From positions 22,389,274 through 22,453,273 of the forward strand of contig OY986970.1 of NCBI GenBank assembly GCA_963920575.1: a stretch of DNA of 64,000 nt, read 5' to 3'. The notes beneath the pieces were generated by a model. That model did no database searches and was not told the origin of the DNA. It saw only the letters and a list, made by a program, of their open reading frames with translations. Position numbers and translations under genes: made by a program. The stretch comes from Narthecium ossifragum (Eukaryota; Streptophyta; Magnoliopsida; Dioscoreales; Nartheciaceae). Below, one piece after another: positions 5,749 to 58,275 of this stretch (position 1 is the stretch's first letter; each line of letters starts with the position of its first letter).

Positions 5749-8147
5749 TGTGAGAACCTGTCCCTCTACTCCTGGGTCGACCGGCTAGGTTGGACTCGTG
5801 GCTCGTTTGATTGTTTCGCGTCGAGCGCGCGATCCGGTGGATTGTATTGTTTCTTGGACCACAAGGGCAATTTGGTAAATTACACCTTGTCGGTTTGTTC
5901 CACACCTGCGTGTGCACACACTGACCGTGTTTGTGTTAGTGTTTGATTAGAATGGTTAGGTGGACCCGGGATCGGAAGATCCAAGCTTGGGCTTGTGTTT
6001 TAGCCCAAGTTTGTGTTTTTGGGCAAGAAGATCGATCTTCCTTGATTGAGATGGATCTTTCTTGCTAAAGAGATCGATCTTCCTTGAGAAGAAGATCGAT
6101 CTTCCTGTGGCAGAAAGTCTTGGCGGTGAATTTTGAGAGGACGGCCGCCGTTGGCCGTTGCTCTCCACTGTCAGAGGGAGAGAGGACTTTCTCTCCTCTC
6201 CTCTCCCTTTTCCTCTTCTTCTCCCCCTTCCCCGGCTTTTCCTCTTCCCTTTCTTCCTCTTCTCCTTCTCCTTCTTCTTCCTTCTTCCTTCTTCCCGTGG
6301 CTCTGCTTCCCCTGTTTTTCGGCAGCCTCTTCTTCCTCTCCGTTCTCCCTCCTCCGGCCACTGTTTTGGGCGTTTGAAGGCTCGTTGGATCCGGGGCGGC
6401 GTGAGGAAGATCCCTGGTGTGGTTTGAAGCTGGGTTGGTGACTGGTTAGTGGGGAATGAGCCGAGGTTTAGCGTTTCCGATAGGTTTCTACCTACTTGAG
6501 TTAGTTTAGGGGTTTTCTCTTGATCTAGCCATTAGATCTTACTGTTCTTGGTATTTTTGGATGTCTCTTGCTTAATGTAATTTCTGTTATAAGTTTCATA
6601 AGCTTTGGTTCAGATTTTAGTAGGATTTAAGCATGTTTAATCTCAGAATTTCCGGTTTCTGCGTTTCTTGAAGAACAGCCGGTTTATGGCGTTTTTTCCG
6701 ATCGTTACGTGCATGATATTGGGTTATGATGAACAAAAGAGTTGTAGATCTTTGAATTTACTCTTAAACCCAACTGGTTTCATAATTGTCTGATTTTCCT
6801 ACGATCTGTTATGAATTTCTTACGGGTGGGCTGCGTTGTAGCAAGTAAAGGTAAGTTAGTGAGATTAGCGGTTTTGATTAATGTTTTCCCGGTAATCGAG
6901 CCATTGGATGTGTCCCAATTTTGGATATATTGATCCCAACATGTTTATCTACTGATGTCTAAGTTGGATCTCGAATCCGACATCGTTTGCATGTTGGATC
7001 GACGGGGTCAATTAGCATATATGTAGAGGATTTTGGTGATTTAATTAATATTATATGTTCAGAACATATAATATTATATTTTACTGTTCACCAGAGTGTT
7101 TGGGGTTACTTCTCATTGCAGGAGTCCGTGGTTGATGGTCGCGGTACCGTCGTAATACCAGGACCCGTTGCGGATTGGCTAGCAGCGGTTGGTAGTACCG
7201 CTACAGCGATCCTGTTGGACTTGTTTGTTGTCTTTAACATATTGTTGCATGCTTACCTCTTATTTGTGTATGTTCATCGCATGCATCTCTGTTGTGCATT
7301 AGTTGCATGGTTAGGGCGTGGGCGATCTGTGGGTCACCGTCCCGAGGCTGGAAGCTCGGATTTAGCCCTAGGACCGGGGTTGGGTAGTTTGGACCCGGTT
7401 CGAATTATAGTGTCTAGTTAAACTTGATGATGGGCTTAGATGACTGGCACACCTGTTGGTTGATGATTGTAGAGGTCATGTCGGCCAAGAGTCGGATGCT
7501 GAGGTGTAGCCGGTGTCCCACTGTGTTGACTCTTGAGTAGAGGGGTTGCCTACTCAGCGGTGTCATTTCCCGCCTGCAGTGCCTTTCCCTGCTTGTGAGC
7601 CAGCAGTGTTAGTCCTGCTTACTGAGTGAGACCTGACATGTGACCAGTTCTTCTGGAAGACCATGATCGTGGGCCTCAGGGACACACGGTGGGGTTATGG
7701 ACCTCTGTATACATCTAGATCTTACTTGAGGGCGACACTATTGCGTTTTCCTCTTCCTTCTGTGTGTCGTAGTGTAGAACCCTACTGAGCTTTATGCTCA
7801 CTCCTACCGGGCAGGTGTTTGGTGGCGCGGCGACGCCAGGCGGAGTTTGAGACGTGCCGATCTTTTACAGCTTTAAACCTATGTTAGTTAGTCTCATACG
7901 GGAGAGTTTAAATATTGTATTTGAATTTTCCCCTCTCCGAGAATATGTATATTAAATTCACTTGGGATTTTTAATCTTGGGTTCAATGTTTGTTCAATTA
8001 TGTCTTCTAAATTGAGGCTGTTTGTGATGAATTGTTAGGGAGACCAATAGGTTAGAGGGAACCCTCGCCAATTTTTTTTCCATGTTTCGTTAGGTTCCGG
8101 TTCGCATTACCCGGCCCGGTTGGGCTTTCGCAGGTCGGGGCGCGACA
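5749..8147 (+). mobile_element. R-family solo LTR, plus strand
   Basis: It starts TGTGAGAACC and ends GGTCGGGGCGCGACA (TG...CA), 2,399 bp. It is flanked by CCTTA and CCTTC, a 5-bp target duplication with one mismatch. Neither a primer-binding site nor internal coding sequence follows the 3' end, so it is a solo LTR left by LTR-LTR recombination. It holds GATCGATC motif pairs (6027-6110) and a CT-rich GC-rich leader near 6180-6360, probably transcribed U3/R sequence. The sequence just outside it resembles the 11.2-11.8 kb tandem repeat. Confidence 0.75.
6027..6110 (+). repeat. GATCGATC palindrome array in R LTR (short)
   Basis: Core motifs AGATCGATCTTCC recur three times, with one degenerate ATGGATCTTTC, spaced 25-45 bp apart. 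Each core is a near-perfect palindrome. This is the shortest member of the array class described in the findings. Confidence 0.75.
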
Positions 8148-8686
8148 CCTTCCCTTATATATGAACTAGTGGGCTCCCGGTGCCAGTAATTTACCACTCC
8201 TTTTCTCTTTCTATCTTTATATATTTCTCTCGGGCCACTAATTGTCGCCCACACCAACTACCTGAAGGTCTAAGAGGGGGATTGATCTTAGGGCTTATAC
8301 AATAAAATCAATTATGTAAATCTAAAGAGGAGGAGTCTAACTAAATCTTATGCTTGCAAATGATAAGAGTATAAAATAGACAAGTAACTGAAGAATAAGA
8401 TATGAGAGTTAGAGAGATTGCACCAGGTTTTATAGTGGTTCGGCCAACCTTGCCTACATCCACTTTAGCCAAGGGTCCTCATTTGGGCTCCACTACTTGT
8501 AAATCTTTACAAACTTTTCACCAAACATCCGAGTGCTTGGCAACCTATCCACCAAGCTTACTAGTGCTTGGCAACCTTACAATCGCTCTAAGCAACAGTT
8601 GGATATCTCTCAAGGTCTATTTCACACTTGAAGTAGTTATACAAAGGCTAAAGCCCTCAAGAAGAAGACTAGAACTTATTACAATG

Positions 8687-10581
8687 TGTCGCACCGCCGA
8701 CCAACTGCCTGGTAGGGCCAACCGAAGAGGAGCTAGCATCTACAACTGCAAAGCGCTGCCCGGGTAGGAGTGAGCAACTAAGCTCAGCAGGGAAACTAGA
8801 CTACGACACACAGAAGGAAGAGGGAAACGCAACAGTGTCGCCCTTAAGTAAGACCTGGATGTATGCAGAGGTTCCATAACCCCACCGTGTGTCCCTCAGT
8901 AAGCAGGAAACAACACTACTGGCTAACAAGCAGGGAAACGGCACTGCAGGCGGGAAATGGCACCGCTGAGTAGGCAACCCCTCTACTCAAAAGTCAACAC
9001 AGTGGGACACCGGCTACACCTCAGCATCCGACTCGAGGCCAACACGACCTCTACAATCATCAAGCAACAGGTGTACCAGTCGTCTAGGCCTATCATCAAA
9101 TTTGACTGTAAGCCACAATTCAAACCGGGTAAAAACTACCCAACCCTGGTCCTAGGGCTAAATCCGAGCTTTCAGCATCGGGACGGCAACCCACAGATCG
9201 CCCACACCCTAATCATCCAACTAATGTACAACGGAGATGCATGCGATGAACATACGCATATAACCAGTTAAACATGCAGCAGGATATGATGATAACATAA
9301 CAAGGTCTAGGCTCGGCACTCAGTCGGCCCAGGGTGGTGACATGTATTTAAGGTTTGGAACTGCTGTAGTTGTACACCACAAACTGCCAGCCAGTTCACC
9401 AGCAACCTGCATCGGGAAGCAGCCCTGCAAACAACAGAGACAAACCACGCAGGTAAAAGCCCTCAGCGCACGCCGGCATGCAAGGCTATGGAAAGCAGTA
9501 GGGCTACTCGCCCACTTATTCTAAACATCTCAGGAGTCATCACTCTCCTGATTCACCACTGCCCCTAATATGGGGCTAGCATGCTTAATAGTATGTACAA
9601 GATATAAAGCTATATAAAAAATTGTACATACAAAGCCCCACGGGCAAACCCATTGAAAAAGGCCCTCAGCCACTAAGAGATCGATCTCTCTCCCAGAGAA
9701 GATCGATCTTCTTAGTGCTTGGAGAAAACTCGTCTCTGTCAACTTGAAGAGATCGATCTTCTCCACCAGAAGGATCGATCTTCTTCATGACACAGATCCC
9801 GCCATACCAGCCAAGCATGGATCGATCTTCTCTAACAGAAGGATCGATCCCGCTCGGGCTGGGCATGATGCCCCACAAAAGATCAATCTTTCCTCAAGAG
9901 AGATCGATCCGAATGGGCCCATCGGCGAACCGCCGGCGATAAATACCGCCGGAAAACTCCACCAAATCCCACCAAACTCTGGGATCTTGTAGTACGAAGG
10001 ACCACGAGTCCAAAACCGAAGATTTCATTGAAAACAAACTTGTATTTTAACAGATCTAAGCAAAACAAACTTCAATTAAACTCAATCTCACAAATCCGAA
10101 AAAACAAATATGTAGGAATCCCTACCTTGCCTAGAGCAGCTTCAATCCCAGCTGCAAGGCCTTAGATCGTCCAAAATCTCTTCAAAATCTGGCAGCTCTG
10201 AGCTCAAGAACGCGGATTTCAAAAGGGATTCAAGGAAGAGGGTTATGTCCATTTTATAGACAAACGAACTGACCTATGAATTATCGATCTTTCCTTAGAT
10301 CCTTCAGGACGATCGCGCCTTGACTTTCTGGCATTAAAAGATCAATCTTGTAGCAAGGAAAGATTGATCCCTTAGGTGCAGAAAGCTAGACTTGGGCTAA
10401 AACTCAAGCCCAAGCCCGGATCTTTCGATCCCTGGTCCACCTAACCTTTCTAATCAAACGCTAACACAAACATGGTCAGTGTGGGCACACGCGGGTGTGA
10501 AACGAACCAATAAGGCGAAATTTACCAGATTGCCCTTGCGATCTACAATGAGCGACAGGGGTAAAGGGGCAGGTCCTCACA
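8687..10581 (-). mobile_element. R-family solo LTR, minus strand, perfect TSD CAATG
   Basis: The plus-strand ends are TGTCGCACC...GGTCCTCACA, the reverse complement of the R LTR termini. A perfect 5-bp duplication CAATG flanks it (8682-8686, 10582-10586). At 1,895 bp it is shorter than its relatives; the region near its 3' end lacks several hundred bases present in 5749-8147. Its body matches that LTR in reverse, for example the CTCACTCCTACC block near the 3' end. Confidence 0.82.
9676..9910 (+). repeat. Array of four GATCGATC palindrome pairs, ~70-bp period
   Basis: Units start at about 9676, 9747, 9817 and 9877. Each unit holds two near-palindromic cores (for example AGAGATCGATCTTCT, then AGAAGGATCGATCTTCTT) separated by 4-6 bases. 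Unrelated spacers of ~30-35 bp lie between units. The cores in a unit can pair with each other or fold on themselves. Confidence 0.8.
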
Positions 10582-10725
10582 CAATGTTTACAAATAATCC
10601 CCTTAGTCTTGCTCCAAGTTTGCTGCTTCTTCCTATTTATACTTGAGCTCCAAAGCTCTCCAAATAGCCTTCCAACAGCTATTTTATGCATCTGCAATGG
10701 CTCTTTAACGGCTAGTTTCCTGACT

Positions 10726-11053
10726 GGCGGTAGACCGTCGCATCGTCTGCCACATCGTCCGTCTCGTTCTTCTTGAGCCGCGGTCGATCCACGCATCGAC
10801 CTTCAAACTTCACGGTCGACTGTCGCATCGACCATCACATTGTCCGTGAGCCTTTGTTGTGAAAACCGCTTCTCAGAGTCGATGGCTCGTTCGACCGTAG
10901 CTTCAACACATAAGGTCACATAGGCCACGGTCGACCAGTCCATCGACCGTCACATCAACTGTCGGCCTATAACCCATAAAAGACCTCTATGGTTGATCCG
11001 TGCATCAACCGCCGGACTCCGCGATCGATCCGTGCATCAACCGCATCGACCAC
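10726..11053 (+). repeat. Array of GGTCGAYC/CATCGACC paired motifs in the copia-like LTR
   Basis: About seven units of the form CGGTCGAYC-N4/5-CATCGACCG occur at about 10726, 10779, 10812, 10878, 10927, 10990 and 11021. Each is an inverted repeat with a 4-6 nt loop, spaced 30-65 bp apart with unrelated spacers. Some units carry transitions such as GGTTGATC/CATCAACC, where both arms changed together. Confidence 0.75.
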
Positions 11054-11173
11054 GAGTACAAAATCATATAAATATTGAACTTAATGATTTCCAAATTAAG
11101 GGATATAAATATTAAACCAATGTTTTATCATTAAACATATGTTGACATCATCAAAACAATATTTGGACTAACA

Positions 11174-13787: not shown

Positions 13788-15369
13788 TGATGTGCTGTCG
13801 CAGGCACTCAAAAATAAAACCAATACTCGTTAAAATAAATATAGTAGTGTGAGTACGAGTCGATCCCACGAATAGTGTTTAGCCTAGTTTTGTGCTTAGT
13901 GAACAAAGATGGGGAGTTTTAAACGTGAGGAAATAATCTAAAACGAAGAAACAAGTTGAATCAAGAGAACAAACCTTGGTCTGAGTCAACATCCACCATC
14001 GGAATCCAACAACTGATCATAGATGCAAGTATCAATCAATTCATACCATGAATATTCACCGTTCGAATTAAATTCGAATCTCTCCTCAATCTTAGTTTAT
14101 TAGAAACAAGCGATCTAATCAACCCTAACAACTAAACAACCTAAGACAAGCGCTGTAGATTTAATCTAGTAGCAGCGTTAAGCATAGGGAGATCGATGAA
14201 GCTAAACAACACAAGCACAAGCGGTTGCATTTAATCTAGTCAAATATTCTTCCTAAGACCTAACAATCTCTGAAACGCAGTAGATTATTAAACCCTAGTT
14301 GCTTCGCAGATTAGAGGGATCAAACAATTCCGGATTTGATATTCAACCTAGCAGTAGATCACAATGAATAATAAACTAGTAGCGCTCCTAGCAATTAGAC
14401 AAGACAATCATGAATATTTAATAACAGAAGAACATTCAATACTCATTTATAAACTGAACAATAAAAATAAATTAGATCTCACAGTTTCATTGATTCCATG
14501 GTTTCAGTCTCCTTGACCAAGGATCAAGATTTAGCCACGCAGGGCCATCGATAACAATCCACAAAAGATTCCAATAAACAAGATAAAACCTAGAAAAAAT
14601 ATAAAGAAGGAGAAAGAGCAACCAAAACTGTCCAAGAATCCCCCCTCAAACCCTAGAAAGAGTCCTATTTATAGCCCCAAAGTCTCTCCATCCACGGATT
14701 AGATCAAAACCGTTGATTTTCTTTACTGGGAAAGTCCGATCGATCCTTCTCGGGGTGTCGGATCGATCGGTCTCATTAAAAATCTTCAATTTCTAGTTAC
14801 GCTTGAGTCCGATCGATCGAATTATGGGTGCTGGATCGATCGGATGCGTAAAAATCCACCTTCTCTGGCTATTTTTGAGTCCGATCAATCGAACTTTAGG
14901 TGTCGGATAGATCGGACCCCTTAGGATAGATGGATGGATCGATCGGACCATGTTCAGCCGAAAAATATATGTTCTGTCACGATTCTGCATAGTCGGATGG
15001 ATCCCACCAGGGTGTCGGATCGATCCAACTTTCCAGCATATTTACTGTTCTGCCATCCAGACTGCGCCATCGGTACTGAAATTGCCGTAACTTCCTTTAG
15101 GAAACTCAGAATCACGAACCGTAAAATTCCCCAGAAACTAGACTTCAAGAGCTTTCCAACCATATATGGTACATCATCTGGTTCTCCATGAGAAGGTACA
15201 AATTAATCTTTAAAGTTGATCCATGCACTCTTTTCAGCTTCTTTTCGACTTAAGGACTTCAATTGCATCCTAAATCAAAATATAAGAATAATGAGTGTAT
15301 TTAGGAACTAAATAAGCATAGCAGACTAAGTATTAAGGAATAAAAATATAACATTATGCATCATCATCA
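13788..15369 (-). repeat. Element A 3' LTR (left copy)
   Basis: The plus-strand termini are TGATGTGCTGTCG...CATCATCA. It matches the right copy at 19150-20744 almost throughout, with scattered single-base differences. It contains the palindrome-pair array at 14734-15029. Confidence 0.88.
14734..15029 (+). repeat. Array of CCGATCGATC...GATCGATCGG pairs in element A LTR
   Basis: Three regular units start 72 bp apart (about 14734, 14806, 14878). Each reads GTCCGATCGATC, a ~12-nt loop with GGGTG(T/C), then CGGATCGATCGG. A half unit lies at about 14928 and a further pair at 14991. Each unit is an inverted repeat. Spacer sequences between units are unrelated to each other. Confidence 0.85.
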
Positions 15370-15385
15370 AATTCCCCCACACTTA
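15370..15385 (-). other. Element A polypurine tract
   Basis: On the minus strand AAGTGTGGGGGAATT lies directly before the 3' LTR. It is preceded by a GAGGACGAGCAAAAGC motif shared in altered form with element B. Primes plus-strand DNA synthesis in LTR retrotransposons. Confidence 0.75.
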
Positions 15386-16153
15386 GCTTTTGCTCGTCCT
15401 CGGGCGAAACTAAAATTCACTCTACTCAAGATATCAAGGTTGCAACGCCATCAACAAAGAACAATCAAGCTCTTCACAATTCATAACACATCATGAACAA
15501 ACATTTTTAGGCAACTTAAAAATCAATCAGTAAGCATTTCCACTTGAAGATGAAGCATACTAAATAAGTAGACCCTCATGGAAATTAACACTCGACTCTC
15601 ATGTGTTTGAAGGGTATGTATTTCACTCAAATTCATTCCAATGGAAGTGATCTACCATAGGCTTGCATATCTTCTCATTCTCCACCACTAGAATCACATG
15701 CATAACACAAATCATAAGGACTTCAAAAGGTTGTAATGGGGTCTAGAATCAAGGTGGGAAATATTTGGGAATGTAGCTCAAAAGCCAATGGAACTAATGG
15801 AGCAAAAATGCATCAATAAGACATGTACCACCAATCATTCCATTCAACAACTTTCTTCAACTTGGCTTTAATATACTCAACCCATATAACATTACGACCC
15901 TGACAAAGAGATTGTTCAAAGGAATACTTCTTACTGAAATAGTGAACAATCTTTTGCAAAAACTTCCACCTTTGTAGAAATCATACATAGACATACCCCT
16001 TTTTTTTGGAGTATTAGGAGGATTCATAAACACATTTTGTAAAATGAGAAACAATTTCCTCCTTCACTTTCTTCTTTCTTTCTTTTTTTTTTCTTTCTTT
16101 TTTTTTTCAGAACCAACATACTCACAAATTAAGTATGAAAAATAAACTCCACA

Positions 16154-16542
16154 TGTGAGGCCCGCTGGGTCTACCGAGGCGACAAGATGCCTGCGCCTGG
16201 AGGGCGGGGCTGAGTCGGGTAGCCGGGTAAGCAATCCCACAACGCCTGGGTATGGTCCGGGGTTCGATATAAGTATATAGTAACCCCTTAATAAACACAA
16301 CGCGTTTTAAAGCCGTGCTGGCAATGAACCGCAGAAAAACTCCAGTGTTAAGCGTGCTTGGGCTGGAGTAGGTTTGGGAGGGGTGACCTCCCGGGAAGTC
16401 CGATCGATCGGTTGGTTTATCGATCGATCGGCTGCGGCGAGCCAAAAGCGGACAATATTGTGTCGGGTGGGGGCCCTCGGGTGGATCCTGGTCGGACCGG
16501 GAGCCCGCGGGCCGGGGCCCAGTGGAGGGTCGAGGCGTTACA
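16154..16542 (+). repeat. Cassandra 5' LTR
   Basis: 389 bp, nearly identical to 16615-17003. It holds a GGGGTTCGAT stretch, the 5S-derived segment, then a CCGATCGATCGG pair, then a GC-rich tail. Confidence 0.92.
16311..16400 (+). other. 5S rRNA-derived segment in Cassandra 5' LTR
   Basis: It contains TTAAGCGTGCTTGGGC, followed by GGAGTAG and GGGTGACCTCCCGGGAAGTC. These match the central and 3' part of plant 5S rRNA, including the internal RNA polymerase III promoter (A box/IE/C box region). The upstream GTGCTGGCAATGAACCGCAG part is more diverged from 5S. Likely to act as a Pol III promoter module, not as a 5S gene. Confidence 0.9.
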
Positions 16543-16545
16543 GTA

Positions 16546-16557
16546 TGGTATCAGAGC
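16546..16557 (+). other. Cassandra primer-binding site
   Basis: TGGTATCAGAGC lies four bases after the 5' LTR and is complementary to the 3' end of initiator tRNA-Met. The same site follows the R-family LTR at 56738-56749. Confidence 0.9.
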
Positions 16558-16614
16558 CGGTTCCCAGCCGGAAATTGTGCCAGCGAGGACGCTGGGCCCC
16601 CAAGGGGGGTGGAT

Positions 16615-17003
16615 TGTGAGGCCCGCTGGGTCTACCGAGGCGACAAGATGCCTGCGCCTGGAGGGCGGGGCTGAGTCGGGTAGCCGGGTAAGGAATCCCA
16701 CAACGCCTGGGTATGGTCCGGGGTTCGATATAAGTATATACTAACCCCTTAATAAACACAACGCGTTTTAAAGCCGTGCTGGCAATGAACCACAGATAAA
16801 CTCCAGTGTTAAGCGTGCTTGGGCTGGAGTAGGTTTGGGAGGGGTGACCTCCCGGGAAGTCCGATCGATCGGTGGGTTTATCGATCGATCGGCTGCGGTG
16901 AGCCAAAAGCGGACAATATTGTGTCGGGTGGGGCCCTCGGGTGGATCCTGGTCGGACCGGGAGCCCGCGGGGCCGGGGCCCAGTGGAGGGCCGGGGCGTT
17001 ACA
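16615..17003 (+). repeat. Cassandra 3' LTR
   Basis: Second LTR copy with the 5S-derived segment at about 16772-16861 and the palindrome pair at 16861-16892. It differs from the 5' copy at a handful of bases, for example one G fewer in the GGGTGGGG run. Confidence 0.92.
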
Positions 17004-17559
17004 CCACTTCACCAATCATAGCCATACCACAAATCCAAACTCCCCCACACTTGAACTTTCACACCCATACATGTCATAATAATGATCAATGCTCCACTAG
17101 TTTTATGGCTTGGGTAACGGAAATATTTTTTCAGGTTCAAAGCTTGTAATGTGGGTTAACAATGAAGTCGATAAAGCTCAAAGGTGTTTAGCAAAAGGAA
17201 AAATTAATCACAAGGTAGGCTATTTGGCTTAAGTAACTTATAACAAAGATGGCCTTAATCATGTTCATGTTTGCAAGTGTCAATGTGACCTCGAATAGAA
17301 TCAAAGCAAGTTCTAGAGAAACAAATCCATGGAAGAATATCTCTCAAGAAAGAAAATAGTGAGACTGAAATGAATGTGTCAGTCTAGAGGCTCAAAATCT
17401 CACCGGCTTTTGTCTGCTCATTCAGTCACTACCATCTCAAGGAAAATAACTCAACTAATTAATTCCAAGTCGCAAAATTACCCATTCAATCATGTTATGA
17501 ATATGTCAAGCTTAACTAATTCTTGCTCATGGCAAATGCAACCTAGATCTCCACCCCCA

Positions 17560-17690
17560 CACCTGAAACTGACATTGTCCCCAATGTAAGGTGGAATGCA
17601 AAGAAAAGCAAAAATAACTAAAATGGAAATGCGAAAATAAAAAGAGAAAGGAACGAACTCCCCTTGGGTTGCCTTCCAAACAGCGCGTTT
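17560..17690 (-). other. Conserved noncoding motifs downstream of the element A ORF
   Basis: On the minus strand GGAAGGCAACCCA, followed about 80 bp later by CATTGGGGACAATGTC and CAGGTGTGGGGGTGG. Element B has GGGAGGCAACCCA and AATTGGGGACAATTAC in the same order after its ORF. The function is unknown; an RNA structure or an internal purine primer are possibilities. Confidence 0.65.
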
Positions 17691-17884
17691 GTTTATGAGT
17701 TGCACAGGAATGGTTCACTGCATGTCTGGGTGAATTCTTCATGTATCATAGGGGGTACTCAATCACCTACAAAGCAAAAGCAAAGCAAAGCAAAACAAAA
17801 GCAAACATGCATGCACACAACCTAAAAATAATTCAAGCACTCTCAAGCAAACTAAACTACTATATACAATAGAAAAAATTTTAA

Positions 17885-19039
17885 TCATGCCCTTGGTGGC
17901 CGTTCTCTAGCACGATGGTATGCAAAATCACTGGGTGCTATAATCTGAATATTTAACCTCAATAATGCCTCCAAGGTTAATTTAGCATATGAATCCAAGT
18001 GGCATATTTCAAAAATGAAAACTAGCTTTTCCATTCTAACACTAGTAAACAAGATAGCTAGATCTCTCAAACAAAAATGCATGTCATCATGGTGATCAGG
18101 AAGAAAGGAGTCAACATTATGCTCAACTATAATCGAATCATCTATTGAACTATTGATAATGTCGTCGTTCGCATTGTCAAAGATGTCAAGATTACAAGAT
18201 TGAAAATAAATCCGTCGAGATATGAAAATATCTACTAAGGTCATCTCCTTTTTAATCACTAATGAAGAAGAAATAGTCACAGGAAATATACCTCGCGGCT
18301 TAACAGGAATGCTTTCAACTTCAGCTAGAGGAGGTTCATCGAATAAATGCTCCTTGTGTTCTCGGCGGTCGATTGGCCTAGACTGGACAGCTTCTTCATA
18401 TGCATTTTGTAGAAATTCCCCCGAAGCATCTCCAACCGCAGCAGTCAGTGAAATATCATCATTAATTTCATGAACCGACAAAGAATCACAAGTAGTATGG
18501 CATATATCATTATTATCAGAAACAAAAGCATCACAAGTATTATCATTACAAACATGAGATATAGGATCATATCTATCAACTTCTTTATCAAAAGAGTGAC
18601 TCACATTGACTTGGTCAATTATTAGTGGCTCTTGTTGCATTTGTGACTGAGCAATGAAGAGGTTCTCAACTTTGTCACATTCCCTAGGAAATCTTTCCTC
18701 CCAAGAAATACGCATTTCTCTTAAGGAATTAGTATTTTCTTCCATTTCCTTCAGAATCGCCAACATTTGTGCTTGAAACTGCCAACTAGGGTAGGTATGA
18801 TCTCTAAAATCCGAATAATAAGAATATGAATATGAATCATAAGCCGGGTTTGAGAAATCATGAAATTGCCAACTAGGGTAGGTATGATCTCTAAAATCCG
18901 AATTATAAGAATATGAATATGAATCATAGGCCGGGTTTGGGTTTGAGAAATCATATGTGTCATTATTGTAAACGGGTCCATAACCAAAAGGCAAATCATC
19001 ATTCCATATGTCACCCGGTGGCATATTATAATTGGCCAC
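17885..19039 (-). CDS. Element A ORF, 384-aa protein of unknown function
   Basis: An uninterrupted ORF in the interior of element A, shortly downstream of the primer site. The N-terminus is rich in Tyr, Asn, Ser and Asp, with an internal tandem repeat (DFSNPAYDSYSYSY...DFRDHTYPSWQF appears twice). The middle is acidic with a coiled-coil-like segment (ILKEMEENTNSLREMRISWEE) near residue 100. The C-terminus is more hydrophobic. There is no CCHC knuckle and no protease, RT or integrase motif. Element B encodes a related protein (43907-45064) of 385 aa sharing DLxFGY, YNND, FSNP-AY and HTxPSWQF. It sits in the position of gag. A Gag-like packaging role is possible but is inference. The related length and open frame suggest it was under selection. 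Confidence 0.7.
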   Translation of the reverse strand: MANYNMPPGDIWNDDLPFGYGPVYNNDTYDFSNPNPAYDSYSYSYNSDFRDHTYPSWQFHDFSNPAYDSYSYSYYSDFRDHTYPSWQFQAQMLAILKEMEENTNSLREMRISWEERFPRECDKVENLFIAQSQMQQEPLIIDQVNVSHSFDKEVDRYDPISHVCNDNTCDAFVSDNNDICHTTCDSLSVHEINDDISLTAAVGDASGEFLQNAYEEAVQSRPIDRREHKEHLFDEPPLAEVESIPVKPRGIFPVTISSSLVIKKEMTLVDIFISRRIYFQSCNLDIFDNANDDIINSSIDDSIIVEHNVDSFLPDHHDDMHFCLRDLAILFTSVRMEKLVFIFEICHLDSYAKLTLEALLRLNIQIIAPSDFAYHRARERPPRA

Positions 19040-19126
19040 ACATTCAAACCATAGAAACTATATAATTTTTTTTTTTTTTTGATGAAAATAAAGATCACTA
19101 TAAGCACAAAAATCAACTAGAATCAC

Positions 19127-19144
19127 TCCCCGGCAACGACGCCA
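19127..19144 (-). other. Element A primer-binding site (tRNA-Asp type)
   Basis: On the minus strand TGGCGTCGTTGCCGGGGA lies five bases after the 5' LTR. It matches the Athila-like primer site (usual form TGGCGCCGTTGCCGGGGA) with one difference. Confidence 0.82.
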
Positions 19145-19149
19145 AAATT

Positions 19150-24364: not shown

Positions 24365-24390
24365 GAGAGGGGAGGGATCTGAAGGGAGCC

Positions 24391-36170: not shown

Positions 36171-36532
36171 AAATCTCACTCAAATATCAACTTAACACTT
36201 AATATGTTTTTGTGTAGATCTCTTCCACTATGATGGATGATTAAATCGAAATATATCGATAAATAGTTTCTTTTTCTTTTTTTTTTCTTGTAGATTTAGT
36301 AATAATATGTGTCATTTCTGCACAAAAAGTACAGTGTTAATGTTACTGATAGAAATTTGGTAACCGTTTGACCCCCCTCCACTGCAATCCTAGTTCCGTT
36401 TAGGGTGTTCATGGTGGTGGAAATGGGGGCCACGAAGGTAAAAAATGATACTATGCCATTGTTAGCTGGGTCTGTATAGTGCCGACCTAATGTGGAGGTA
36501 TTATATATATATGAATGGGTTCTAATCAGTGG

Positions 36533-36680
36533 TTAAACCAAGTCCCAAAGGGATGAGGCATTTTAAAAATAGTGAACTATAATTAGTTCATTACTATTTA
36601 CTTGTAGGTTTTTATTTAAAATTTGGACATGTTTAATCAAATAGTGTTACAAATTAGCAACATAGTATGTAATGTACAGA
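36533..36680 (+). repeat. ~148-bp direct repeat, copy 2
   Basis: Second copy, 511 bp downstream of copy 1. It lies next to a GTATTATATATATATG microsatellite. Confidence 0.8.
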
Positions 36681-36689
36681 AAAGTGCGG

Positions 36690-43594: not shown

Positions 43595-43599
43595 CTTTT

Positions 43600-43617: not shown

Positions 43618-43906
43618 TTTCGACGGGTAACTAATTTATTTTCTCTTAACTCGTTTTCTTGGCTTAGTTAGTTTTTTATCTTTCTTATTTCTTCCTTTCT
43701 TTATTTTACACTTTTTAGGAATTTTGTGACAATTTTTTAGAATTTTTTGCAGCATTGGAACGGATTTTTCTTGAAGGAAGCATCTCACCCACGGCCTGGA
43801 GCGATCGGTCGGACCCCAAACCGACCGATCGGAATTGCGCAGTCAGGTAAGTTTTCTAAATTCAAAATTTTTCGTTTCAATCAATTTTTATATACCAAGG
43901 GGTGCC

Positions 43907-45064
43907 ATGTTGAATGGCGATTTATCTTTTGGTTATAGAACCTCTTACAATAATGACATATATGGTTTCTCAAATCCGGCATATTATTCACATTCATATC
44001 TCTATAATTCGAATTTTAGAAATCATACAAACCCTAGTTGGCAATTTGAAGGTTATCAACCTCCTAACATTCAACCATGGAATATAGAAACACCGGCCCA
44101 AAATTTTGAACCTAGTTTTGAACGGCAATATCCTCCACAAGTACTCTCTAACCCGACTTTGGAGAAACTCATGAGTGCAAGTGTTAACATGAAAACTGAG
44201 CTTAAGAATGAAATGACGCTGATAAGGAACGAGCAATTATTGCTAAGAAACGATGTTAACTCTAATGCTCAATCAATTAAGAAAATAAAAATACAAATAG
44301 AACAACTAGCCCACATGGTTGATTCATATTATGAGAATGAGGACTATGCAAATAATTCTGTTCCGACTGTTTGTGATGACAATGTTGATGAAGCTTATGT
44401 TTCTAATGAGAATGAGGCATGCCATTTTGAAATGTGTTCTAATAATTTGTTGAATTATACAACTATTGACAATATTTTGCCGGCCCCTGAAAATAATATT
44501 CCTGAATGCATACCTAATGAAACTGGACCTTATATGTATTCTGATCATACTTTAGAAGCTAATTTTTTTAGTGATGATGAGGGTTGTTATGCTAAATTGC
44601 TGGTTTTTCATGATAAGTTGAATGATGATAATATATCTATTTACAATAATCATAATGAGGATGAGCATATTAGTGAGACCCACTGTCGGAAACCTCAAGT
44701 TGAAGTTTTACATGATGAGTTGAATGATGATGATATGCCTATTAGTGATAAATATAATGACGATGAGGGTGTTAGCAATATTCCTTATCTAGAGCCTCAG
44801 TTTGAGATTCTACCTTTAATATCATTCCCATTAGTTGAACTTTTTGAGGAGCAGAACTTTGTTATGAGTGAAGACCATGCCAATTCCTATCTTCCCTTTC
44901 TCAAAGATCGTATCAAAATTTCCAGTTCTATGCATATTTTGTTTGCTATGAAATTCTTTTTATTCTTTGATGAAGCATGTATGCATACCTTCACCATGAT
45001 TCGGGCCATGTATTTCTTCACATGGAATCATCGGCCTCCTAAATTTTGTTTCAGAAGTGTCTAG
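43907..45064 (+). CDS. Element B ORF, 385-aa protein of unknown function
   Basis: Start placed at the ATG of MLNGDLSFGY because this aligns with DLPFGY near the N-terminus of the element A protein and gives almost the same total length (385 and 384 aa). An in-frame ATG at 43835 would add 24 residues. Shared segments: FGY, YNND, GFSNPAYYSHSYLYNSNF-like, HTNPSWQFEG. There is then a heptad-rich stretch (LEKLMSASVNMKTELKNEM to IKIQIEQLAHMV, about residues 85-145) likely to form a coiled coil. A long acidic Asn/Asp-rich region with a repeat of DELNDD(D/N)xxI follows, then a hydrophobic C-terminus (FAMKFFLFFDEA, MYFFTWNHRPP). No retroviral enzyme motifs. The position suggests a Gag-like or packaging role, which is inference only. 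Confidence 0.7.
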   Translation: MLNGDLSFGYRTSYNNDIYGFSNPAYYSHSYLYNSNFRNHTNPSWQFEGYQPPNIQPWNIETPAQNFEPSFERQYPPQVLSNPTLEKLMSASVNMKTELKNEMTLIRNEQLLLRNDVNSNAQSIKKIKIQIEQLAHMVDSYYENEDYANNSVPTVCDDNVDEAYVSNENEACHFEMCSNNLLNYTTIDNILPAPENNIPECIPNETGPYMYSDHTLEANFFSDDEGCYAKLLVFHDKLNDDNISIYNNHNEDEHISETHCRKPQVEVLHDELNDDDMPISDKYNDDEGVSNIPYLEPQFEILPLISFPLVELFEEQNFVMSEDHANSYLPFLKDRIKISSSMHILFAMKFFLFFDEACMHTFTMIRAMYFFTWNHRPPKFCFRSV

Positions 45065-45069
45065 CGAAA

Positions 45070-47548: not shown

Positions 47549-48929
47549 TGTGATAAGTCACTAATTATTCTTAATTAAACCCCTTAAATTACCTTTGTTA
47601 GGCCTAGAGTCTGTGTATTTGATATCCTATTGTTTCATTTCAGGTTTAAGTATGATTTCAGAAGAAATACAAGAAATTCGACCAAAACTCACTAAATTCT
47701 GCAAAAAGACTGTTTCGTCGACTGTTTGGAAATAAATCACCAGACATTCTACAGACCTTCAAATATTCTGCAATTCTGGGAGATGAACGAAGACTTCAAG
47801 GTCTACAACTTTCATGTTGAAGACTTTGTGTGATTCTCTATAGATTGGCGTCCGTTTCGAACCAAAGTTGGATCTATGAAAGCTGAAATTTGATAAATGC
47901 TTAAATTAATTAATGGCGTGGCAGTGAAGACCCAGTCAAACCGACTGGAGCGATGGATCGGATTTGAGTCCGATCGGTCGTTCGGATGACGTCATCAACA
48001 CGGAATTTAGGGAAATTAGAGTTTAAGTTCAATTATAACTCCTAATTCCGGGATCAAGGATTTCTACTATATAAAGGGGTTACTCCAGCCGAAATAATCA
48101 TCTTTTTGACAATCTTTGGAGAAGGAAAAAGAAGACGACGAGGATGCGGATAGTGACAACTTCCTATTCCAACCCGATGGCTTTCATCCAAAAGATGAGT
48201 TGCTGATTCTTGTATTTAGGAATATCATGAAACCCTAGAGTAGTTTTGGTTTTTCTTTAGTTTGACTCTTGTGAACTTCTCGATGCATGATCTCATGAAT
48301 ATAGTTTTATTGTTAATAGAGTTGAAGGAACAGAGTTCCCTTGACGTACTTTCAGTCCTACATGATTTCTGTGATTGATTGTAGAGATTTATAAGATGGT
48401 TTTCATGAAGTTATTGGTTTGCTTTTGAGATAAGCTATGCTACGCAAAGATAGGTTGTGCCAAGGTCATTAGGAGTAATATAATTTAAGGTAATCGTAGG
48501 ACCAAAGACAATCTACGCCAAGGAAAGATAGGTTATGCCGTTATGAACATTAACTTTCTTTTAGGGATTCATATGAGCTTATGGCCATATGATCCATAAT
48601 GTTGAGAGAAGGGAACAAGATGATAACTAGAGAAGACTAATAATGAAACTAGGGCGTATTGAGTAATTCCTAAGTAACTACTCCATTGATTCAAACTGAT
48701 CAACCTTTTATTTCTTTTCTTTATTAGTTTGATAACTCTATTCTATCTTTGATTCTTTTCTTAAGTTTTAGGGTTTCGAGAATTGATTTCAGTTTCCAAC
48801 GTTTTCCCTGTGAATTGACTCCTGACTTCACCGCTATCATACCTAGTAGTGTAGTGATTGAATAAGGATTATAGATTTAATATTTGATTGAGTTTGCAAC
48901 GTTTTAACGACGACGTTTGCGAGCGATCA
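47549..48929 (+). repeat. Element B 3' LTR
   Basis: TGTGATAAGTCAC...GCGAGCGATCA. It keeps the uninterrupted version of the site where the R LTR inserted in the 5' LTR. A CTATATAAAGGGG TATA region lies at about 48066. Confidence 0.88.
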
Positions 48930-50600: not shown

Positions 50601-51827
50601 TTAGGATACTAATATAGGATCAATCAGAAAAGTTTCTTTTAGTTTTTTTTTTGAACTTCTCATGTTTAACTTATCACGTCAGTTGTGTTCAGAATGCACG
50701 CCCTCACATGAATGTCTATCCATTATATTCTCCTTCGGACAAGCAATTAAAGCTGCATCAATTGGATCCTAGCCACAAGGCACGTGGAAGCCCTGATTAA
50801 CTCCTCGAAGTCATCATATTATTTTTCCTTTCGACAACCAATTACAGCTGTATATATCCGTTGGGATGCTAGCCACTTTAGATAATTAAGTTGAATCAGA
50901 GGCAAGTGGAAGGCCTTTAATTAATTCCTTGAAGCCATCATATTATATTTTCTATTAGACAAGCGTTCGGTTTCAGTTCGATAATCGATGCAAAACCGAA
51001 AAATTGAAATTTCTTACATCCAATTTTTAAAATCCGGACCGAACTAAGTTATGTAATAATGTAGTCTAAAAAATAAAAGATGATTAGTTTATTAAAAAAA
51101 TCAGGTTTTCTGGTTTTCCGGTTTTAACCGAAACCTATAATGAAGTACCGAACGGAGCCAAGAAATCAAAATTTTTAAAAATGAAGAACTGAACCGAATG
51201 GATCGAAAAACCGATCAGAATTAATCAAAACACCGAACCGAATGGATCAAAATTATTCTGTTTTTTTATTACATATCGGTTTTCCTCACCCCCAGTGATT
51301 AAAGTTGTATCCATTGGAATTCTAACTACTTTGGATCATCAAGTTTTTGCGTTGATCAGTGATGTTGAGTTTTCTTGGGTGTTTTTTCGGATTTTTGTGG
51401 CCACTTGGATCCTGGCCACTTCAGCTTGCAATTCCTCGAGGAAAGAGGTCAGTAAAAAGATCATCAAGATTTCCATATCCGGTCTCACAAAATAAAAATA
51501 ACTTAATTAAGAAATTATTGTTTTACAAAAAGTACTTATTTTTTTCATAAATGTAATCACCGGAAGAGCAATTAATAATAACAATCCACGTAAAAGAGCT
51601 GCATAGCTCAGTAACATCATACTTCCGGTGCCTCTGCCGACAATGAAAAAAAGTAACAAAAGAAATGAAATGCAATAAAATAATAATAATAATAGAATAG
51701 ACAAAATAGATAATATAAGAAAAAAAAAAATCTTTATCCCTTTTTTTGTCAGAGAAGATGAGAACTATCACCTCCAAATTTTACAAAATTTATCTTTCCG
51801 GATTCTTCCTTCAGCCCAAGATGTCTT

Positions 51828-53490: not shown

Positions 53491-54849
53491 TCTCCACGAT
53501 CTCCCCCTGTGTCGCGCGATCTCCCCTCCTGATCTCCCCCTGTCAACGACGACCGGGGTCTTAGGAGGAGTCATGCAAGGAGCCCGCCCGGAGGTGTCAG
53601 ATCTCGGTGGTGAGAGCTAGCGGCGACGGTGGAAGCCATTGGGGCTCGAATACTCGAGCTCGAGCTCGAGCTTTTACTATGGCGGCAACGTGGAGTGCAG
53701 CAATGGCGACGACGTGGAGAACGAGACCCAGATCTTGATCTTAGACCAGTCCGACTCCGACCGACCGTACGTCCACCTTCCCGTCGCCGTCCTCTATAGC
53801 TCGCAGTCACGACCTCTCCTTGCCGGCGGCACCCCCACTCCTTCCTGTCACTATCCTCGACCTCCATGAGGTCATCTCAGCGCTGATGACGAGCCTCACG
53901 GACCACGACCGTGACCGACCACCAAACCCCATCGCCGTCTTCCCTTCCTCTAATCTAAGGCTGACGACCCCGAAGCCCAGCACCAGATTCGACGACGCCC
54001 ACCAACACCATCGACGACATGCGGCCCGCTCAGTCGCCCTCCCTCGCTGAGGTCTCTACGAGCTCCATCCCCTGTGAGGACCTGCCCCTCTTTTCCCTTT
54101 TGGCTTGTGTTGACCCCAATGGACATTTGGGAAATTGCGCCTTGGCGGTCGTTCCACACTGGGTGTGCACACACAGACCCTGTTTGATGCTTGTGTTTGT
54201 TAGAAAGGTTAGGTGGGACCTAGTTTGGGAGTTCTGGGCTTGGGCTCGTTTTCCAGCCCAATGTTGCACTTCTGGGCATGGAGGATCGATCCTTGGGTCG
54301 TGGAGGATCAATCCTGCTTGTGCCTGGAAGTCTTTGTCGGTGGCTTTCGAAGGACGGCCACCGCGGTGGCCGTCGCTTCCCCTGTCAGGGGAGGGAAGAC
54401 TTCCCAGCTTTTCCCCGCATTCGCCGGCTTTCCCCGGCCTTACCCCGCCCCCTTCCCCTGCTCTTTCCTCTGGGCTTCCTTCTTCTTCCCCGTGAGAGCT
54501 CTGCTTCCCCTGTTCCGGCCTCCCCTTTTCCTCCTCCGTTCTCCCTCCTCCAGCCACCGTTCTCGGAGCTTGAAGGCTCGTTGGAACCGTGACGGCGTGA
54601 GGAAGATCCTTGGCTAGGCTTAGTGGATCGAAGCTGCTCTAAGGAGGTAGGGATCTCACTCAAACCTCCGGCTTGCTTTGAGAGTTTAAATCCGGGTTTT
54701 GTTTTCAATAGATCTCCTTGTGGAGTTGTTGGTTCCCGGTTTTGAGGCCTTGAGTAGCCTCGTGGTACTCAGATCTACCAACCCACCAAGTTTGGTGAGT
54801 TTGGTTGTGTCTTCCGGCGGTTCTCCGACCGGAAGCACGCCGAAACCCA

Positions 54850-55160
54850 TCAGGATTGATCCTCCTGGGAGGAAGGATCGGTCCTCTGGTGTTGGCTTGC
54901 TGCGCCCAGCACATGATCGATCTTCTTATGGGAGGAGATCGATCATGGGGCCTGGGTGAGCATGGTTACCCTTCGTCCCGAGAATGATCGATCTTTCTTG
55001 GAGGAAGGATCGATCTTCCTTGGTGCGACTGGAAGGGCGCCCTCTGTCACCAAAAAGATCGATCTTCCTGGGAGGAATGATCGATCTTCTTTGGCTCGAC
55101 AGTGAGGGAAGCTCACTGTTGCTTGAATGATCGATCCTTCCTTGGTGAGGATCGATCCTT
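54850..55160 (+). repeat. Array of five GATCGATC palindrome pairs, ~70-bp period
   Basis: Units start at about 54850, 54912, 54983, 55053 and 55126 (steps 62, 71, 70, 73). A typical unit is ATGATCGATCTTTC, a short loop, then GGAAGGATCGATCTTCCT. Spacers are dissimilar GC-rich sequences. An extra pair lies earlier in the LTR at 54282-54315. Confidence 0.85.
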
Positions 55161-55626
55161 CGGTAGCAGAGAGGGTTTTTGACGGTTTTTCCCTTGGGCT
55201 TATCATGTTTTACATCATGCTTGAATGTTTACCGCTTTGTGGTTAATCGAGGGAGTAATGAACCCTCGGGAATGCTTAGTGTAACTGGGCCATGGGTTAT
55301 GCTCTTTTATCGCTTTATGATGAACCGAAGGAAGTCATGATCCTCGGGAGTGTTTAGAATAAATGGGCCGAAGGTGTGCCCTTGCTGTGTTGCATGTTAT
55401 CGCTTTATTTATATCCTGCCCTGCTCCTGTGCATTAGACATGCTAGGTTAGACTGGGTGGGGTTGACCCGTGGACTCCGGTGATCAATGACTAAGTGGTT
55501 GACGCCGTTACCCCGGTAAGGGTGTCCTACAAGTATCGTCTGGGCCACCCTGTGCCAAGGACCGTCGGAGGTAGCCCAGTCCTTGAGCAGTGGCTATCGG
55601 AGGGACGTAGGTTGGACAGCAACCCT

Positions 55627-55639
55627 GGGGGGGGGGGGG
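55627..55639 (+). repeat. Homopolymer run of 13 G
   Basis: In the R LTR, next to CAACCCT. Likely expanded from a shorter G run seen at the equivalent place in the internal duplicate. Confidence 0.85.
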
Positions 55640-56737
55640 AAGACATCGATGGGATCGATGGACTCCCTGGCTAGACTTAGTTTTGGGTCAGGAGTTAGGG
55701 GTCCTGTTGGCCCTGTGGCTTGGAGTACTGAGAGATGGTAGTCTTAACCTCGGTCGTTCCGCCAAGTGTGGAGATCCCGCTTGGGGAAGGGTGTCCTACC
55801 AGTAGCGTCATGTCCACCCTGTGTCAGGGATTGTCGGAGTTGCCCACCCCTGAGCAGTGGTTGTCGGAGGGGCGTACTTGGGACAGGAATCCTTCGGGTT
55901 AGTGACGGGATTTATGGGGTCCTTGGCAAGCCTCAGTACTTGGCCTCAGGGTTGGTTCGTTGGGTTTGCCTTCTTAGCGGGAGTGGTAGAGTAGGACCCT
56001 GCTGAGCTGTTGCTCATTCCTACCTGGACTATGTGTTTGCAGGTGCGGGTCCCCGTTCTCCTCCGGTGCTTCCCCGTCGGTCGTCTCGTGGCAGCGTGCC
56101 GGATCCTGACCATGTCTGAGGGTCAGGATGGGTTCGTTTGCGCGTTTGCGGAGACCCCGGTGGGTGGTGTAGCTTCTTTTTGGGGACTGTTGATCCCTTG
56201 TAGCTTGTTGTACTAAACCTTTGTTAGCTCTTTTATTACTGTTTTGTAATAAATGTTAATAGTTGTTGTAGTAGCTTGCTTCCGCCTTGTGCTTGTTGGC
56301 AGCTGTTTCCGCTAGCTGTCTTTTAGTCTCGACTGTTTCCGCCAGTTGAGGCTAGTGATTATAGGCTTTTCCCCTCGCGGTCCCGGCCCGGGTGCGCTCT
56401 GCGGGTCGGGGCGCGACATCACCCCTCTCTTCTCCCGCCTCCCCGACACCTGCCTCCTCCCTCCTGGTCCTGGGCCGCGACGGGTCAACCCGACTCGAAC
56501 CCGACCCGTTTAATAAACGGGTTAGGCGGAACGGACAACACCAGTGCGCATGCACATCTCCCTCAGAGACGTCATGACGCTACCGGAAAGCAACAAAACA
56601 CAACAGCAAACAGATAAATAAACACATCACACACAATCGCAAACAGACATGCAATGATGTTTTAGACCTAGAACTATCCCATTCCACACTCAAAATCTTA
56701 ACCGCAAGCCTAATCCTATTCCTGGGACCTACAACCT

Positions 56738-56749
56738 GCTCTGATACCA
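56738..56749 (-). other. R-family primer-binding site (tRNA-iMet)
   Basis: TGGTATCAGAGC on the minus strand, three bases after the LTR end. Confidence 0.88.
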
Positions 56750-57953
56750 AGTTGTCACACCCCGACCCAGAAAACCCATCCGAACTGGGACGTGAGGGGA
56801 AACCTACATTATTTACATACGATACGACGCGACAATAGACAAAGCGGAAACAATTTGAACTTAAAGACTTCCAATGGCATAAAGGTAAAACTAAATATTA
56901 CATTGCGGAATAAAACTCAATCAAAAGAGGGAACATGATTTCATATATTAAGCGTTAAATACATCATCCTCAAAATGTAACTTTAAACAAAAGCTGCCAA
57001 AATATACATCTGTCCCTCCGGAAGTCGTCGCGCCACCAAAACCTGATCCAACCGGCTCTACTGAAGAAGAACTGGCGCCTGCACCTACAAACGCAGCCCG
57101 GGTAGGAGTGAGCAACAAGCTCAGTAAGGTTCTACTCTACGACACACTGAAGGGAGGAAAACAACAACTGTGATGTCTCTCCGCTCAAGTCTAAGGAATG
57201 TCACGGGGTCCCACAACCCCTTTCGAAACCTCTCTCCTAAACAAGTTACCAGGAGGCCATGGAACAGTAACATGCAGGATCACCCTTACCCAAGCAGGAT
57301 TCCCATGCCTTGGGGACCCACATCGGGAACGTATCGACATCCATCCTTAGCACTTGGCATTGGGGAGACAATACGACCTCTAAACCTCAATAACAATATG
57401 ATTATAGCCAACTACATAATATTCTCGATAACATGAAGATTCCAATGATACAATCACGTCCTAAACCTTAATACCCAGCCACGGTTCTAAGGCTAGATCC
57501 GAGCTACCCGAGAGTCTCGGATCGGCGATCAACCCATTGCCCCGCCTAACCTGATGTGCCTGATCTAATGCATACAGTGTATGGGCGTATGCAAACATCT
57601 AACCTAGATGTCATTATATGCCACAACAACAATTATGAGTTCAACAGTTATACAATAGCTCTCGGCACTCGCCGGTAACGGGCTAAGGTTCGACAATACA
57701 ACGTAAGCTAGCACTCATAGCTAGCTAACGGCTAAACAAACAATAAGCATTTAAGTTTACTATCCAATTAGGTATTTAAATGCAAGTCAACCCACAAATC
57801 TGCCAAAAAGGGTAAACACACGTTTCAATTCCCAATCTCAATCGAAATCCATTGAAAACCCCGTGATAATAGCATGCATGCTTCCTAACATGATTGGGTA
57901 CCAATCATGAACGAAAAACCAATCAAAGGAAGCCAGAAAACACTGTTCAGGGG

Positions 57954-58275
57954 CTCACGGTCGATCCGACGGTCGACCTGAGACCAAAAAGTGGGGAAAG
58001 CATAAGGGCCACGGTCAATCGGGACGTCGACCATGGGAAGCCAAAAAGGAGACAGAGCATCACGGTCGATGCTACGGTCGACCGTGAGCTAAAGTGGTAA
58101 AAGGGTAAGGGCCCACGGTCGATCGGGACATCGACCCTTGGAGACTCAAAACGAGACAGAGCCTCATGGTCGATGTGACGGTCGACCGTGAGGCCACGGT
58201 CGATCCGATGGTCGACCATGAGACCAAAATAAAACGTGCCAACACCTAACGGTCGATTCGACGGTCGACCGTCAG
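57954..58275 (+). repeat. Array of seven GGTCGAT/GGTCGACC units, ~52-bp period
   Basis: A 28-bp unit, CACGGTCGAT-NNN(N)-ACGGTCGACCGTGAG, occurs at about 57955, 58010, 58061, 58114, 58165, 58195 and 58248. Steps are 55, 51, 53, 51, 30 and 53. Spacers of ~23-27 bp are A-rich; two resemble each other (GAGACAGAGC). Each unit can fold on itself. It lies in the minus-strand R LTR where the others carry GATCGATC pairs. Confidence 0.88.

Follow-up and report, generated by a model that had tools for sequence, protein, structure and literature searches.

Arrays of short palindromes in the long terminal repeats of several retrotransposon families in a 64-kb window of the Narthecium ossifragum genome

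Why should the long terminal repeats (LTRs) of different retrotransposon families carry the same kind of short palindrome, repeated several times at similar steps? The question is raised by a stretch of 64,000 bases from Narthecium ossifragum (assembly GCA_963920575.1, contig OY986970.1, positions 22,389,274 to 22,453,273 of the forward strand), here called the window, from which all evidence on the arrays comes. A preliminary description located arrays of palindromic cores in the LTRs of a family designated R, in a copia-like LTR, in an Athila-like element (A) and in a Cassandra-type element, and this is confirmed by the counts given below: the arrays are real and non-random. It also did not know them as a named LTR feature, but for one group they are named: in the LTRs of Sireviruses, palindromic boxes that stand upstream of TATA were described in 2010 as the 'repeated motif' (RM) (Bousios et al. 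2010, PMC2829016, in the part of the paper available to us).

The palindrome GATCGATC has 39 exact matches in the window, whereas shuffled sequences contain 1.45 on average and 6 at most, and none of 100 shuffles gets to 39. A second core, GGTCGACC, is found eight times (shuffle mean 0.65, maximum 4), and a further shuffle set gave means of 1.3 and 0.37 for the two cores. Among the 256 eight-base palindromes GATCGATC ranks first by a wide margin, the runner-up having 8 occurrences; all 256 pooled were observed 344 times against 241 expected. The mapped LTRs, the boundaries of which were partly set by eye, cover 16,733 of the 64,000 bases and include 38 of the 39 GATCGATC sites and seven of the eight GGTCGACC sites. 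The only sites elsewhere, one of each type, are at 1816 and 1873, 57 bp apart in a polyphenol-oxidase-like open reading frame (ORF). Since the sites are clustered, the counts exaggerate the number of independent events, and the independent evidence amounts to about four families, with R present in four copies. An artefact was considered as a source of GATCGATC, which doubles as the Chicago/Hi-C ligation junction (PMC5288721, available part), and was rejected as unlikely because the palindromes reach 16 bp and are phased at fixed steps.

The R copies belong to one LTR family, with BLAST-aligned 5' parts that are 66–82% identical and 3' parts that are 74–80% identical. Their features are as follows, where fold z denotes folding energy relative to shuffles.

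5749–8147, plus strand: R1, a solo LTR of 2399 bp (TGTGAG...CGACA), from its alignment to R2–R4
6027–6104, plus strand: R1 proximal array, four GATCGATC-type cores at steps 20/22/22 (RNA fold z −4.9)
8687–10581, minus strand: R2, a solo LTR nested in the copia-like LTR, with a perfect 5-bp target-site duplication (TSD), CAATG
9676–9910, minus strand: R2 main array, four hairpin units with eight cores, seven of them exact (fold z −7.6)
10282–10369, minus strand: R2 proximal cores, a hairpin pair GATCAATC/GATTGATC at 10340/10362 and a lone one-mismatch core at 10282
10250–10258, minus strand: R2 TATA match TATAAAATG, about 24 bp past the proximal cores, a consensus match only
54073–56418, plus strand: R3 LTR of 2346 bp, from its alignment to the other R LTRs
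54281–54316, plus strand: R3 proximal pair
54850–55160, plus strand: R3 main array, five hairpin units with ten cores, eight of them exact, and a longest stem of about 28 bp (fold z −9.0)
56753–59113, minus strand: R4 LTR of 2361 bp, with a Met-type primer-binding site (PBS) adjoining at 56738–56749
57954–58275, minus strand: R4 array, seven GGTCGATC-(4)-GGTCGACC units, some degenerate (fold z −8.8)

The cores of R1 start at 6030, 6050 (one mismatch), 6072 and 6094, and with up to one mismatch allowed GATCGATC-type cores in R1 are confined to 6030–6094, i.e. to the proximal set; the LTR is flanked by the TSD-like sequences CCTTA and CCTTC, with four of five bases agreeing. The core of R4, GGTCGACC with a partner at 12 bp, differs from that of R1–R3. 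The preliminary description is corrected in this respect for R4, and also for R1, which has only the proximal set. R4 is a 5' LTR, since the Met-type PBS comes next; at this junction the LTR end ACA is followed by ACT-TGGTATCAGAGC. Because no pol gene is linked to R, the family is left without superfamily assignment. The minus strand encodes a Ty3-type pol (protease, reverse transcriptase, RNase H, integrase) at 60921–63998, which is interrupted by an assembly gap and has no shown link to the R LTRs.

The arrays in the other families, and the parts of the elements that are needed to place them, are:

8263–11173, minus strand: copia-like solo LTR of about 1.0 kb (about 1014 bp) excluding the nested R2, with a perfect 5-bp TSD (CTACC on the plus strand)
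10726–11053, minus strand: copia-like array of RM-like GGTCGA...TCGACC inverted repeats (fold z −4.3)
10634–10641, minus strand: copia-like TATA match TATAAATA, in mid-LTR about 85 bp past the array
13791–20744, minus strand: Athila-like element A, with LTRs at 13791–15369 and 19153–20744 that are 96% identical
20109–20404, minus strand: Athila A 5' LTR array with eight exact cores, LTR offset 341–636 (fold z −5.8)
14734–15029, minus strand: Athila A 3' LTR array, the same array as in the 5' LTR, with six exact cores
20040–20048, minus strand: Athila A TATA match TATAAATAG, about 60 bp after the array, LTR offset 697
19127–19144, minus strand: Athila A PBS-like stretch
17885–19039, minus strand: Athila A gag-like ORF, named by position and without family match, which sets the sense strand
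16154–17003, plus strand: Cassandra-type element, two 389-bp LTRs that are 97% identical, a Met-type PBS at 16546 and 5S-like stretches
16400–16432, plus strand: palindrome pair of the Cassandra 5' LTR with a step of 20, which overlaps the 5S-like stretch at its 3' end
16861–16892, plus strand: palindrome pair of the Cassandra 3' LTR, step 20

A PBS of the tRNA-Asp type and a Ty3/gypsy pol are hallmarks of Athila, and we take the PBS-like stretch of element A to be of the tRNA-Asp type. Its gag-like ORF gave no Pfam match, and none of 5354 candidate homologues scored; at the DNA level it resembles an ORF at 43835–45064. No pol was found among the inter-LTR ORFs of at least 200 amino acids, of which the gag-like ORF is the only one on the sense strand. 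The arrays in the two LTRs of element A differ at 10 of 321 aligned columns, two of these differences being within cores. The smaller element has the short LTRs, the 5S-like promoter, the Met PBS TGGTATCAGAGC and the lack of a coding part that characterize Cassandra, and its LTR end ACA is followed by GTA-TGGTATCAGAGC. By itself the match of its two copies to the Rfam 5S_rRNA model is weak, because the scores (19.0 and 18.6 bits, E 0.45 and 0.59) are below the gathering score of 38. The LTR ends of R and Cassandra are alike, with a TGTGAG start in both, GGGGCGCGACA at the end of R1 and R3 and GGGGCGTTACA at the end of the Cassandra 3' LTR; judging by these ends, it looks as if one integrase could serve both.

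Most cores of R2, R3 and Athila A are paired at 21–23 bp, and the distance from pair to pair is usually 61–73 bp, an exception being the end of the Athila array, which is irregular. The successive core steps are 22/50/22/47/22/39/21 in R2, 22/39/22/49/22/49/22/50/21 in R3, and 23/50/23/49/23, thereafter less regular, in the Athila 5' LTR. The fixed steps that had been proposed for all arrays do not extend to the copia-like one, which is irregular and has two perfect 8-bp palindromes. When units of the same array are compared (four in R2, five in R3 and four in the Athila 5' LTR), the cores are 94–100% identical, as against 32–48% for the outer 15 nt of the flanks and an identity of 0.47–0.64 for the inner flanks. 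The cores and their spacing have therefore been retained, while the remainder was turned over.

BLAST comparison of the LTRs with each other (sense strands, E ≤0.01 and also E ≤1e-8) gave no match between families except two, both between R4 and the copia-like LTR, one of 78 bp at 68% identity inside the arrays and one of 46 bp outside them. Apart from these, the earlier statement that the families do not have the remainder of their LTRs in common is borne out. Two 14-mers are common to different families, GATGTGACGGTCGA to R4 and the copia-like LTR and AAGTCCGATCGATC to Athila A and Cassandra. Convergent acquisition would fit the absence of common LTR sequence, and on these data it looks the same as if the families had exchanged short pieces of their arrays.

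What could the arrays be doing? We consider it rather probable that they are cis-regulatory and of the Sirevirus RM type, i.e. arrays of enhancer type that serve a dimeric host factor; in R a hairpin constraint would come on top. The CpG-centred palindromes (GATCGATC or GGTCGACC), which are repeated at fixed LTR steps and in several elements stand directly upstream of a TATA match, would each be bound by a dimeric host DNA-binding protein. The step of 21–23 bp, about two helical turns, would turn the two sites of a pair to one face of the DNA, the array would act as an LTR enhancer, and unrelated elements would have gained the same sites because they all use one host factor. The extension of the pairs to hairpins of up to about 28 bp in R2 and R3 would be a second constraint, for which a protein site has no need; such hairpins may fold in the transcript and, by the precedent of maize, could feed small-RNA silencing. 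The presence of conserved palindromic cores in divergent flanks, some of them near TATA matches (consensus matches, not mapped transcript starts), fits sites for a dimeric protein. The observed/expected ratio of CpG is 1.46 in the Athila, 1.49 in the copia-like and 1.26 in the R4 array, as compared to 0.78 in the window.

Several observations weigh against an enhancer of this kind. The CpG ratio is ordinary in the R2 (0.84) and R3 (0.72) arrays. The main array of R2 is about 350–580 bp downstream of the TATA match instead of upstream (offsets 667–900 and 318, counted from a string starting 6 bases inside the LTR), and no TATA consensus match was found in the R1, R3 and R4 LTRs. Cassandra has a single pair per LTR, situated where the 5S-like stretch ends, and exact CGGTCGACCG, the Vitis Sirevirus RM consensus (PMC2829016, available part), does not occur in the copia-like array. 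Complementarity that extends into the outer flanks is superfluous for a protein site. Palindrome density alone is not specific for LTRs, as the top seven 300-bp windows include those at 36501, 24701 and 50901; 36501–36800, 24701–25000 and 50901–51200 hold 7–11 perfect 8-bp palindromes, numbers that none or one of 200 shuffles attained. For the Sirevirus motifs themselves a common binding factor was not found in the 2010 paper, as far as its available part goes (PMC2829016).

The main rival, strongest for R2 and R3, is that the arrays were selected as RNA structure in the transcript: hairpins of about 70 nt in tandem would serve the dimerisation or packaging of the genome, or another RNA step. 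Their self-complementary arms could pair two RNA copies with each other, like the palindromic stem-loops of murine leukaemia virus. For R2 and R3 this explanation can draw on the outer 20-nt flanks, which are complementary unit by unit: in 11 units the score was 7.8 with the own partner and 5.4 with others (p 4e-5; strand-neutral alignment scores, permutation within LTRs), the R1 units being omitted because their sites overlap. The R2 and R3 arrays are therefore extended hairpins. With 20-nt flanks, a stem-loop folds in each of 18 units, for which the outer flanks without the cores have a sense duplex energy of −13.1 kcal/mol when matched to their own partner, as against −8.6 for other partners (p 2e-4, partners permuted within each LTR copy or element and the 18 units pooled); an ungapped complementarity count on the same units gave p 0.066. 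Taken singly, the R2 main array was placed by duplex energy at only 1/24 in sense as well as antisense and that of R3 at 5/120 in sense and 9/120 in antisense, and unit-specific hairpins were not found in Athila (11/24 sense, 8/24 antisense) or in R4 (1037/5040). Pair counts in R2/R3 point the same way, with 16 of 26 pairs changed on both sides, equalled by 18 of 500 shuffles, and 35 both-side-changed cells, reached by 0 of 500. The true register exceeds all six slid registers, and another, weaker measure was attained by 6 of 500 shuffles; since the units are related, these shuffle figures are not probabilities. We therefore ascribe extended hairpins to R2/R3 and not to every family. The two explanations offered at the outset, sites for a dimeric protein or hairpins, thus both have support, with flank complementarity of the hairpins restricted to R2/R3.

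RNA structure is further supported by R2, where the TATA match precedes the main array and where the proximal pair GATCAATC/GATTGATC has lost its palindromes through changes on both sides that left the pairing intact. Moreover, on the sense strand the folding of the five larger arrays is much stronger than that of shuffles (z −4.3 to −9.0), raw folding energy is lower for the sense strand in nine of ten arrays, and the sense z-score is clearly stronger for Athila (−6.1 vs −3.9), R4 (−9.0 vs −7.7) and the copia-like array (−4.3 vs −3.0). With composition controlled, however, the antisense strand is the stronger in R2, R3b and Cassandra and the remaining arrays are close, while the ratio of G.U to A.C mismatches, 47:28, is near the share expected from composition. 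Strand asymmetry thus does not amount to a proof of RNA action, with z-scores going both ways, and action as RNA or DNA cannot be told apart by strand tests. All in all, we regard selection as RNA structure as clearly less probable than enhancer-type arrays.

The hairpins might also serve mainly as sources or targets of small RNAs, comparable to microRNA precursors, in silencing or in conflict between host and element. According to the available part of PMC10760457 (citing Bousios 2016), maize hairpins are concentrated in Copia LTRs, where they are associated with an excess of small RNAs and with peaks of CHH methylation. Ty3/RLG elements of maize are described there as generally lacking an obvious peak, however, and a role as small-RNA source alone would leave the conserved cores and steps unexplained, which makes this possibility rather improbable. 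Even less can be said for a neutral by-product of tandem and inverted duplication via template switching, with cores alike through recent duplication. It could account for the similarity of the R2 and R3 arrays (64% by BLAST), of the R3 array to itself one unit apart (71%) and of the Athila array to itself (73–77%), as well as for the tandem period of 104 bp in R4, and separate inverted duplications would likewise give arms that are complementary unit by unit; but the strong difference between cores and outer flanks within the same units, and the same core at similar steps in elements otherwise without LTR similarity, render it very unlikely. Least credible is that co-packaged RNAs recombined while being reverse-transcribed and thereby carried one array from family to family, since, in spite of the common 14-mers and the R4/copia-like match, BLAST finds nothing between the R1–R3, Athila and Cassandra LTRs, the arm types are family-specific, and AAGTCC in Cassandra is part of the 5S-like stretch.

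Returning to enhancer-type arrays, one may tentatively imagine, though we would not bet on it, that a single host factor or constraint has been exploited by unrelated lineages (copia-like, Athila-like, R and Cassandra), resulting in an LTR 'array code' that crosses superfamilies. Equally tentative is the extension of this idea to phasing in several lineages, compensated hairpins per unit as an addition in R, and a switch from GATCGATC to GGTCGACC inside one family. If true, the motif would answer to the host rather than to a single lineage, and the exact sites listed here could be used in a search for the host factor. The R2/R3 hairpins are suitable for comparing single-arm with compensatory mutants, by which action as a DNA site could be separated from action as RNA structure, a question that is open in the maize work.

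Other parts of the window carry a second Athila-like element, B, in the LTR of which a GATCGATC array was not found. Its relevant features are:

around 39447–43594 (interrupted) and 47549–48929: Athila-like B LTRs
47948–47983, plus strand: a single GATC-type hairpin in an Athila-like B LTR
43802–43831, plus strand: an 11-bp perfect hairpin, CGATCGGTCGG/CCGACCGATCG, in the Athila-like B leader

A perfect palindrome of 52 bp (21006–21057) and shorter ones (22635–22648), with GGAATTCC cores, lie within GA/CT-rich tandem repeats, and may be the terminal inverted repeats of a DNA element. The window, which is rich in LTR elements, further contains a polyphenol-oxidase-like gene fragment at 1296–2743, flanked by a 278-bp inverted repeat that is 99% identical, and a P450 gene at about 24.3–26.6 kb, for which the highest identity among the matches listed (120 of 2292) was 67%, to Typha, those of ordinary length being mostly from monocots.

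Relatives were also sought in a set of viral contigs (viral_contigs). One GATCGATC pair at a step of 22 was present at 34 loci, 29 of which have a GC content of at least 0.55; three or four cores within 400 bp occurred at nine of the 34, and in none was a further 22-step pair placed at the distance that is typical of the window. Contig L023 has four GATCGATC cores in about 95 bp (6800–6925; steps 32, 32, 22) with TTGATCGATCAA-like arms, as far as seen unrelated. A search of the same contigs for pol relatives gave 31 pattern matches, of which 0 were confirmed.

How do these arrays compare with known systems? The closest are the RM boxes of Sireviruses, which according to the available part of PMC2829016 are present in high copy number in the upper half of the LTR, have a CGG-CCG core and form a CpG island, with TATA on average 37 bp past it; among Ty1/copia elements they were reported as Sirevirus-specific. 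The arrays described here are likewise palindromic, repeated, in the upper LTR half and built of conserved cores in divergent flanks, and in Athila A and the copia-like LTR a TATA match comes just after the array. A motif repeated at least eight times per element and conserved amid divergent sequence, as in Sirevirus RMs, is found in the R2, R3 and Athila 5' LTR arrays and also in R4, with seven units, three of which contain CGGTCGACCG exactly, but not in Cassandra (two per LTR), R1 (four) and the irregular copia-like array. As to position, with a start at 200–400 bp and TATA soon after, Athila A agrees, the copia-like LTR does so roughly (array at about 121–448 of 1014, TATA match at 533), and the R2 main array, which comes only after its TATA match, does not. 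The GATCGATC arrays lack the CGG-CCG signature, as does the published Tnd-1 RM (PMC2829016, available part), and they differ further in their steps of 20–23 and mostly 61–73 bp and in the unit-specific extended hairpins of R2/R3. The carriers are different as well, since they include an Athila-like element, the R family and Cassandra. Of the characters that define the genus Sirevirus (Ty1/copia, polypurine tract AGGGGGAG, AT/TG and CA/ATTGG-TATCAGAGC junctions), Athila A deviates by its other PBS and R4 and Cassandra by their other junctions. The copia-like array is probably the already known RM feature, and it is possible that this is a Sirevirus LTR, judging by its length, TATA position, C-rich stretch near the end and motif rather than by coding sequence.

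The maize Copia LTR hairpins resemble the present arrays as clusters of palindromic motifs in LTRs, with a motif common to several groups of transposable elements; their palindrome CACCGGACNNNGTCCGGTG is common in Helitrons too (PMC10760457, available part). The motif is different here, and one carrier is Athila-like, whereas maize Ty3/RLG showed no such peak. Published Cassandra elements (PMC7215508, PMC10853983, available parts) have the short LTRs, 5S-like stretch and Met PBS also seen here, but are described in terms of whole-element folding and not of a palindrome pair at the 5S-like end; in the main text of PMC10853983 the terms 'palindrom', 'hairpin' and 'inverted repeat' are all absent. 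The SIRC elements of Arabidopsis are similar in having short direct repeats, some with palindromes, and diverse spacers between them, and dissimilar in that they are proposed to derive from miniature inverted-repeat transposable elements, occur genome-wide, have about 57% of repeats without palindrome and are not defined by LTRs (PMC10342631, available part). Open-licence literature on GATCGATC combined with 'retrotransposon' yielded no title on LTR palindromes. The available parts of this open-licence literature describe neither the GATCGATC type nor arrays or pairs in Athila-like, R and Cassandra elements, nor the present steps and the hairpins specific to each unit.

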